A DNA stretch of 64,000 bases from an uncultured Acidobacteriota bacterium (GTDB lineage Bacteria; Acidobacteriota; UBA6911; CAINFC01), in NCBI GenBank assembly GCA_903847975.1, contig CAINFC010000208.1, positions 62,001 through 126,000 of the forward strand, written 5' to 3'. Every line of letters begins with the position of its first letter. Positions within the stretch are counted from its first letter, which is position 1. A program made the position numbers and the translations under genes. The notes beneath the pieces were generated by a model, which was given only the letters and a program-made list of their open reading frames with translations, was not told the DNA's origin and did not search any database. Positions 24,755 to 27,387 of the stretch are shown piece after piece.

Positions 24755-25066
24755 ATGGGTATTGACAAGCGATCTTCCCCACGCACCATCTATGTCGTGG
24801 AAGTGCAGTTTGGTGACCACGATCTCTACCACCGGGGCAGGATTGCCGACATCAGCCCCAACGGGATCTTCATCGATACGATGAGCCCCTGGCCGGAGGG
24901 TTCCCGAATATTCTTCCGCTTCCGGCTACCGGACACGGCCCAGGGAAGAATCGTCAGCGGAGAAGGAAAGGTCGCCTGGGATCAGCGGCAGGTGGGCATG
25001 GGAATCCAGTTCACCTCGATCTCGGAGGAGGACCTCAGCTGGATACAGCGCTGCTTCCCCGGTTGA
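24755..25066 (+). CDS. PilZ domain protein (c-di-GMP binding)
   Basis: 103 residues, essentially a single PilZ domain. Both c-di-GMP-binding motifs are present: RSSPR (RxxxR, residues 6-10) and DISPNGIFI (D/NxSxxG, from residue 32). A receptor for cyclic di-GMP is therefore expected; output could be motility, adhesion or exopolysaccharide, and the Tad pilus locus makes adhesion attractive, but no direct link is visible. The ATG at 24755 has AGGAAAG 11 bases upstream; a TTG 30 bases earlier is less likely. The selenoprotein gene starts 33 bases after its stop and may be co-transcribed. Confidence 0.82.
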   Translation: MGIDKRSSPRTIYVVEVQFGDHDLYHRGRIADISPNGIFIDTMSPWPEGSRIFFRFRLPDTAQGRIVSGEGKVAWDQRQVGMGIQFTSISEEDLSWIQRCFPG

Positions 25067-25099
25067 TCCGCCACACCAATCCAACGGAGGTGCAGCCGA

Positions 25100-25642
25100 A
25101 TGAAACTTCTTGTTTACAGTATTTCTATTATGCTGCTCTTTTGCCTGGGCGGGGTGCGAGCCGCCCAGCCCGGAACTTCGGCTTTGAAAGCCGGAGACCG
25201 GGCGCCGGACTTCCAGCTCCCGGGATCGGATGGAAAAACCTATACCCTGAAGCAGTTTGCCGGCAAGAAGGCGGTGCTCATCGCCTGGTTTCCCAAGGCT
25301 TTTACCGGTGGCTGAACGCTGGAATGCAAATCGCTGCGTGACAGCGGTGCGGAAATCGAAAAGTTCGATATCGCCTATTTTGCGGCCAGCACGGATGACC
25401 CGGAGACCAACCGGAAGTTCGCCGAATCCCTGGGCTTGCGCTATCCCATTCTCAGCGACCCGGACAAAAAGACGGCCGAAGCCTATGGCGTGGTTCACGA
25501 GGGGCGCGCTCTGGCGGAGCGCTGGACTTTTTACATCGACTCCAGGGGCGTGATTCTGCATATCGACCAGAACGTCAAGCCGGCCGAGCACGGCAAGGAA
25601 ATTGTCCGCAAGCTCACCGAGCTCGGGCTGTCGACCCGGTAA
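25100..25642 (+). CDS. Selenocysteine-containing periplasmic peroxiredoxin (TGA read as Sec)
   Basis: 180 residues when the TGA at 25313-25315 is read as Sec72. The frame is continuous on both sides. Upstream: signal peptide (MKLLVYSISIMLLFCLGG, VRAAQ) then GDRAPDFQLPGSDGKTYTL and LIAWFPKAFTGG. Downstream: TLECKSLRDSGAEIEKFD, AASTDDPETNRKFAESLGL, YPILSDPDKKTAEAYGV, WTFYIDSRGVILHID. The TGA falls exactly at the peroxidatic Cys of the BCP/AhpC-TSA template (FTxxC-TxE). Cys76 may be the resolving residue. A 7-bp hairpin with a G in its loop starts 15 bases after the TGA and fits a bacterial SECIS. GGAGGTG precedes the ATG. Expected to reduce peroxides in the periplasm. A pseudogene is the alternative but less likely. 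Confidence 0.85.
25313..25348 (+). other. Selenocysteine codon and bacterial SECIS-like hairpin
   Basis: TGA at 25313-25315, then a stem ATCGCTG (25330-25336) pairing with CAGCGGT (25342-25348) through seven base pairs including one G-U, closing the loop CGTGA. The loop begins 21 bases after the TGA and has G as its second base. This spacing and loop agree with the bacterial SECIS rule as I recall it (16-37 bases between UGA and apical loop, G in the first two loop positions). Coding capacity is kept in the same frame. Confidence 0.75.
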
Positions 25643-27031: not shown

Positions 27032-27046
27032 TCTTCAAGATCAGGG

Positions 27047-27363
27047 AAACAAGATCAGGGACACCCACTTTTCCTCCCGTCCCCCTGATTGGATCGCTAT
27101 CGCAATCGCTATCGAAAACACACCAATCAGGGACACCCACTTTTCTCCAGCAATCAATGGGTGTCCCTGATTTTCCGCAATCGCAATCGCTATCGAAAAC
27201 ACAGCAATCAGGGACACCAATCAGGGACAGCAATCAGCAGCAATCAGGGACACCCACAGCAATCAGGGAGGCACCAATCAGCAGCAATCAGGCACACCAA
27301 TAAGGGACACCCACTTTTCTCCAGCAATCAATGGGTGTCCCTGATTTTTGGGTGTCCCTGATT
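27047..27363. repeat. GGGACACCC hairpin repeat array
   Basis: Irregular array of AATCAGGGACACCCA and its inverse TGGGTGTCCCTGATT. A perfect 15-bp stem (27125-27139 with 27158-27172, 18-base loop) recurs near 27299-27346, and CGCAATCGCTATCGAAAACA is directly repeated at 27101 and 27183. Further single cores lie at 27054, 27206, 27222, 27243 and 27349. Such motifs resemble targets of REP-associated tyrosine transposases. The gap 27032-27513 holds this array and the element at 27388-27452, and no supportable gene. Confidence 0.75.
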
Positions 27364-27387
27364 TTTCCCTGATTTTACTTCTTTCTG

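Follow-up and report, generated by a model that had tools for sequence, protein, structure and literature searches.

Within a 64,000-nucleotide stretch of an uncultured Acidobacteriota genome (hereafter, the window), an open reading frame with clear peroxiredoxin sequence on both sides is interrupted by one TGA codon. The question raised by this locus is whether the codon directs the insertion of selenocysteine (Sec), or whether it reflects an error, a decayed gene, or a different genetic code. On the basis of the family-wide comparisons described below, we predict an exported selenocysteine peroxiredoxin as the product of this gene (estimated probability, approximately 0.93).

A peroxiredoxin gene with a single in-frame TGA

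The features of the locus, all on the forward strand, are as follows.

25086 to 25090, forward strand: Shine-Dalgarno-like GGAGG, 9 nt upstream of the ATG, as read from the sequence.
25100 to 25642, forward strand: predicted selenoprotein gene, complete (180 amino acids plus TAA), with a single in-frame TGA and a Pfam AhpC-TSA match of 111 bits.
25100 to 25165, forward strand: predicted Sec-type signal peptide, MKLLVYSISIMLLFCLGGVRAA (hydrophobic stretch with a presumed cleavage site; low pLDDT).
25193 to 25561, forward strand: AhpC/TSA (peroxiredoxin) domain, residues 32 to 154 (Pfam match, AlphaFold2, and Foldseek).
25292 to 25315, forward strand: active-site motif P65-K-A-F-T69-G-G-U72 (peroxiredoxin PxxxTxxC/U), from the sequence and conserved in two family alignments.
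25313 to 25315, forward strand: TGA, predicted to encode Sec72 at the peroxidatic position (TGA, TGC, or TGT only across the family).
25325 to 25327, forward strand: Cys76 (Sec+4), the proposed resolving cysteine, invariant across the family and located in helix 70-81 of the model.
25330 to 25348, forward strand: predicted bacterial SECIS hairpin, in which 25330-25336 pairs with 25342-25348 to form the stem and CGTGA (25337-25341) is the loop, from folding and covariation.
25520 to 25522, forward strand: Arg141, the conserved peroxiredoxin active-site arginine (invariant column in two family alignments).

The frame runs from the ATG at 25100 to the TAA at 25640-25642, and its sole internal stop is the TGA at 25313-25315. 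With this codon read through, the Pfam AhpC-TSA model (PF00578) matches residues 32 to 154 at 111 bits (cut-off, 26 bits), a match that spans the TGA. The surrounding sequence (PKAFTGG-U-TLECKSLRD) places the TGA at the peroxidatic position of PxxxTxxC, and the peroxiredoxin signature residues P65, T69, U72, and R141 are present. These results confirm the description given by the sequence-only reading, i.e., a peroxiredoxin frame broken by one TGA at the catalytic cysteine.

Alternation of TGA with cysteine codons

Relatives were sought in 149 related genomes, which yielded close relatives with 49 to 61% identity, most of them containing exactly one TGA. In the GTDB genome collection, a further scan gave matches to at least 591 relatives, and the 80 loci that were taken from the GTDB matches listed belong nearly all to Planctomycetota, Verrucomicrobiota, and Acidobacteriota. 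The first set of 97 distinct members carries TGA at the codon in 57 cases and TGC or TGT in 40, with nothing else observed; the second set of 49 further Acidobacteriota members carries TGA in 35 and TGC in 14. Both sets together (146 distinct members from Acidobacteriota, Planctomycetota, and Verrucomicrobiota) contain 92 TGA codons, 54 TGC or TGT codons, and no other codon, although these members share ancestry and their counts are not counts of independent events. The alignment with Cys homologues, which had been proposed as a check, demonstrates that in these members the TGA at the peroxidatic position is exchanged with Cys codons only. A close member was present in 60 of the 396 Acidobacteriota genomes sampled.

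The genome that contains the window encodes a second predicted Sec-peroxiredoxin (L055; G000:C179:19425-19877, reverse strand) with TGA at the same place. Its N-terminus (MRYLRGFVSLLALLTGC) contains the lipobox LLTGC, which indicates that it is likely a lipoprotein, and the gene carries a putative SECIS of its own (TCATTCCGTGAGAATGG).

A conserved neighbor (i.e., PilZ or a redox partner) was also considered; clustering of 377 flanking open reading frames revealed nothing common beyond close relatives. The adjoining PilZ gene, which had been singled out as notable context, is not conserved among the flanking frames of the relatives and is incidental. Elsewhere in the window, an intergenic cluster of imperfect direct repeats based on AATCAGGGACACC / GGGTGTCCCTGATTTT occupies positions 27036 to 27376.

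Selenocysteine machinery of the genome

The assembly that contains the window is a draft (8.13 Mb; 326 contigs; 99% complete; 1.8% contamination). A search for the genes of selenocysteine synthesis and insertion, likewise proposed at the outset, detected tRNA-Sec with the anticodon TCA (77 bits), selB (344 bits; cut-off, 242), selA (544 bits; cut-off, 268), and selD (358 bits; cut-off, 125) in the same genome, all above the curated cut-offs. These four genes lie on four different contigs; because the genome is a draft of 326 contigs with 1.8% contamination, they could in principle belong to another organism. FdhA, considered as an additional selenoprotein of this genome, was rejected (no match over the cut-off and no internal TGA).

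Among the genomes bearing only the TGA form, selA exceeded the cut-off in 38 of the 41 tested, and tRNA-Sec was present in two of the remaining three. Neither selA nor tRNA-Sec was found in 6 of the 25 genomes with the Cys form only, a comparison limited by gaps in the metagenome-assembled genomes (MAGs). One Verrucomicrobia UBA2970 MAG carries the TGA form (L066), yet neither selA nor tRNA-Sec was found in it; this MAG is probably an incomplete bin, or its gene is in transit.

A change in the meaning of TGA throughout the genome (e.g., to Trp or Gly) would agree with the readthrough at this codon, and its probability is close to nil, given that the PilZ gene immediately upstream uses TGA as an ordinary stop (25064-25066), that the site alternates with Cys and not with Trp or Gly, and that the whole Sec set is found in the genome.

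A SECIS hairpin conserved in the TGA members

The hairpin downstream of the TGA (AUCGCUG-CGUGA-CAGCGGU) has 7 bp and a folding energy of -7.8 kcal/mol, with its loop 21 nt past the UGA. It satisfies a published rule for bacterial SECIS elements (i.e., a loop of 3 to 9 nt, G in loop positions 1 to 2, a spacing of 16 to 37 nt, and a minimum free energy of ≤ -7.5; PMC13188914). Taken alone, this rule is weak evidence, because approximately 3.0% of the TGA positions in the window pass a similar loose rule and 2.2% pass with this exact geometry. The minimum-free-energy fold of a longer stretch around the hairpin favors a different pairing.

Comparative evidence lifts the hairpin far beyond chance. 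At least six of the seven pairs can form in 88 of the 92 TGA members versus 7 of the 54 Cys members (55/57 versus 4/40 in the first set; 33/35 versus 3/14 in the second set), and GTG occupies loop positions 2 to 4 in 54/57 TGA members versus 4/40 Cys members of the first set. Covariation was tested on the alignment of the 57 TGA members, with pairs numbered from the T of TGA. In pairs 18-36 to 24-30, 95.8% of the cells are paired, versus 31 to 66% when the columns are slid by 1 to 3, and changes on both sides occur in 30 cells, versus a mean of 6.4 in shuffled alignments (0 of 500 as high). RNAalifold, unaided, recovers five pairs of this helix, namely the inner ones. When the genome was searched with a covariance model built on the SECIS region, exactly two strong hits emerged, i.e., the two TGA peroxiredoxins; in this search for more SECIS elements of the same type, the next hits had E values of only 1.1 and 8.5. 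Fold z-scores from synonymous shuffling indicate stronger folding directly past the codon in Sec forms than in Cys forms (p = 0.008), a small effect compared with the far clearer result of direct pair counting. These alignments demonstrate that the mRNA hairpin is under selection in the TGA members and not in the Cys members. The earlier description of the hairpin as SECIS-like is borne out by the rule match, the covariation, and the contrast between Sec and Cys forms, and we interpret the hairpin at 25330-25348 as a genuine bacterial SECIS.

In two TGA members (L034 and L178), the usual stem is broken, but 6 bp around an 8-nt loop can form in a shifted register (TCGCTG-CGTGARTC-CAGCGA).

Sequencing error or pseudogene formation, i.e., a miscalled or decayed TGC or TGT, would be compatible with the draft state of the assembly and with the existence of Cys homologues that carry TGC. 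Because the same TGA recurs in 92 distinct members, free of frameshifts, we exclude this explanation for practical purposes and rate it as very improbable. Moreover, identity to the family carries on downstream (mean, 57% over residues 73 to the end versus 72% upstream of the TGA), as the claim that the gene is not decayed had anticipated, and the SECIS is present in TGA forms and mostly absent from Cys forms.

Coupling of RNA pairing to two protein residues

In pair 22-32 of the stem, the partners are base one of codon +7 and base two of codon +10. A C-G pair at this place corresponds to Leu (CTN) with Ser (AGY), while a U-A pair corresponds to Phe (TTC) with Asn (AAY). One of these two combinations is found at +7/+10 in all 92 Sec members versus 8 of the 54 Cys members. 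The coupling was discovered in the first set (57/57 TGA versus 7/40 Cys members) and recurred in the independent second set (35/35 TGA versus 1/14 Cys members); Cys members carry Leu..Asn, Phe..Ser, Met..Asn, and others. The best tree implies seven switches between Leu..Ser and Phe..Asn among the TGA members, a soft number given the weak tree support. As judged from these alignments, the SECIS pairing fixes the protein residues at +7 and +10.

Sec and Cys forms are intermingled on the tree. At least 16 Sec/Cys changes are required on the best tree, which is poorly resolved, and two of these are forced by well-supported branches; an independent-pairs test, with two pairs on supported branches only, had no power. 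One supported sister pair consists of L102 (2486-3010, TGC) and L127 (2417-2953, TGA), and the Cys-coding L102 retains the full SECIS stem and the CGTGA loop. The simplest reading is that this hairpin is a relic SECIS left after a recent change from Sec to Cys.

Predicted export

Wherever the start could be read (95 members), a hydrophobic N-terminal segment was found, the start having been chosen in favor of such a segment, and lipobox-like motifs occur in several members (e.g., LLTGC in L055 and LIGC in L108). Export of the window protein is thus strongly suggested, and the family-wide N-termini support the sequence-only reading on this point. Alternatively, the selenoprotein could be cytoplasmic or anchored in the membrane by an uncleaved N-terminal helix, a reading that gains some room from the assessment of N-termini by hydrophobicity rather than by a trained signal-peptide predictor. 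We regard it as improbable, since the N-terminal segment of the window protein terminates in small residues (VRAA) and the relatives carry varied typical signal peptides or the lipoboxes mentioned above. Exported selenoproteins are already known, e.g., formate dehydrogenase-N of Escherichia coli.

Fold and proposed mechanism

The AlphaFold2 model, built with 69 family members, has a mean pLDDT of 91.7 (approximately 98 over the domain; low at the N-terminal segment). Helix 70-81 (pLDDT, approximately 98) holds both residue 72 and residue 76, with the peroxidatic residue near its N-terminus. The best Foldseek match is 3drn (Bcp1; TMt, 0.85 to 0.89), the best PDB matches are all peroxiredoxins, and AhpE is also near. 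Cysteine occurs in the window protein only as C15, within the N-terminal hydrophobic segment, and as C76.

The product is most likely an exported peroxidase in which Cys76 would act as the resolving partner of Sec72 within one helix. In this mechanism, SelB and Sec-tRNA(Sec) would bind the hairpin so that Sec is inserted at the UGA, and the general secretion pathway would export the product, whose signal peptide would be removed, leaving the enzyme to act in the periplasm. Sec72, together with Thr69 and Arg141, would then reduce hydrogen peroxide or organic peroxides and be converted to a selenenic acid. Cys76 lies a single turn along the helix and would form an internal selenenylsulfide with Sec72, and a thioredoxin-like periplasmic donor would reduce this bond. 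The attacking role of Sec72 and the resolving role of Cys76 are proposed from established peroxiredoxin chemistry. Since Sec72 and Cys76 would be the sole Sec or Cys residues of the mature protein, they fit an internal resolving step.

Cys76 may instead have no resolving role, in which case the selenoprotein would work as a 1-Sec peroxidase with an external thiol as its direct reductant, in the way of the 1-Cys AhpE. One of the closest solved structures is AhpE of Mycobacterium tuberculosis, and a related exported-looking TGA clade (L042, L043, L046, L047, L049, L050, and L052) has no Cys at +4. This reading appears unlikely, if still worth weighing, given that the +4 Cys of the window family is invariant in Sec and Cys forms alike (97/97 in the first set and 49/49 in the second set; 146/146 in total). 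We therefore favor resolution of Sec72 by Cys76.

The clade without the +4 Cys represents a second group of exported-looking TGA peroxiredoxins, with AFTGGU or AFTRGU at the active site and a strong hairpin of another sequence (e.g., GATATCA-GTC-TGATATC) that lies about as far from the TGA as the hairpin of the window family. Two BCP-like TGA peroxiredoxins (L044 and L051), with Cys at +5 and without an evident signal peptide, represent a third Sec type in the phylum, one that is probably cytosolic.

Comparison with known peroxiredoxins and selenoproteins

It is somewhat more probable than the contrary that the window protein represents an unnamed, widespread exported subfamily in Acidobacteriota, Planctomycetota, and Verrucomicrobiota, with a one-helix Sec-x3-Cys redox center, many Sec/Cys switches, and residues +7/+10 set by SECIS pairing and not by protein function. 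Such a subfamily would mean that major environmental phyla, for the most part uncultured and with little-described selenoproteomes, carry selenium-based peroxide defense outside the cytoplasm, and annotation pipelines would truncate its genes at the TGA. The Sec/Cys pairs of one exported enzyme would also constitute a natural experiment that reveals how a coding-region RNA signal constrains protein sequence, including the +7/+10 coupling lost in most Cys forms and the apparent relic SECIS of a Cys form.

Sec-peroxiredoxin (TxxU) is a listed selenoprotein family (PMC13188914, PMC2398784, PMC1088965), with 253 examples listed in ocean samples (PMC2398784), 43 assigned to COG1225 (PMC1088965), and a genome count of 12, of which Anaeromyxobacter contributes three (PMC1794560). 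The window protein shares with this family (PF00578/COG1225; PrxU of Eubacterium acidaminophilum; Sargasso Sea and GOS sequences) the AhpC/TSA fold, TxxU, a peroxidatic Sec, and a SECIS just past the UGA (PMC13188914, PMC2398784, PMC1088965). It differs in its predicted export signal and in the invariant Cys at Sec+4, neither of which is mentioned in the passages on Sec-peroxiredoxins of the four sources (PMC13188914, PMC2398784, PMC1088965, PMC1794560). The sequence-only reading was correct that Sec-peroxiredoxins are known; its view that an exported form with a PilZ neighbor is unfamiliar stands without the PilZ gene, and any novelty would be limited to the exported Sec-x3-Cys subfamily because the Sec-peroxiredoxin is already a listed family. 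Searches of the open literature for PrxU, UxxxC, and exported Sec-peroxiredoxins returned nothing specific, and a prior description in subscription journals is possible.

No NCBIfam model reaches its curated cut-off for the window protein; the PrxU model (NF040737) scores 43.6 bits (cut-off, 270). Peroxiredoxin-like thiol:disulfide oxidoreductases (ResA-like, UxxC) and WAxxUGC proteins are PF00578 selenoproteins, some of them extracytoplasmic. Their Sec motifs (UxxC or UGC) differ from that of the window protein, which scores 35 bits with NF041054 (cut-off, 300). The 1-Cys AhpE (Rv2238c) is a near fold match with 36% identity and a common AFTG-(U/C) active-site loop; however, AhpE has Cys instead of Sec and lacks the +4 Cys in the alignment. 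The best sequence and fold matches are to BCP/PrxQ (3drn Bcp1; thioredoxin-dependent thiol peroxidase NF006960, 97 bits, below the cut-off of 140). Since L044, L045, L051, and L053, which are BCP-type relatives, carry the second Cys at +5, the Cys at +4 in the window family constitutes a distinct arrangement.
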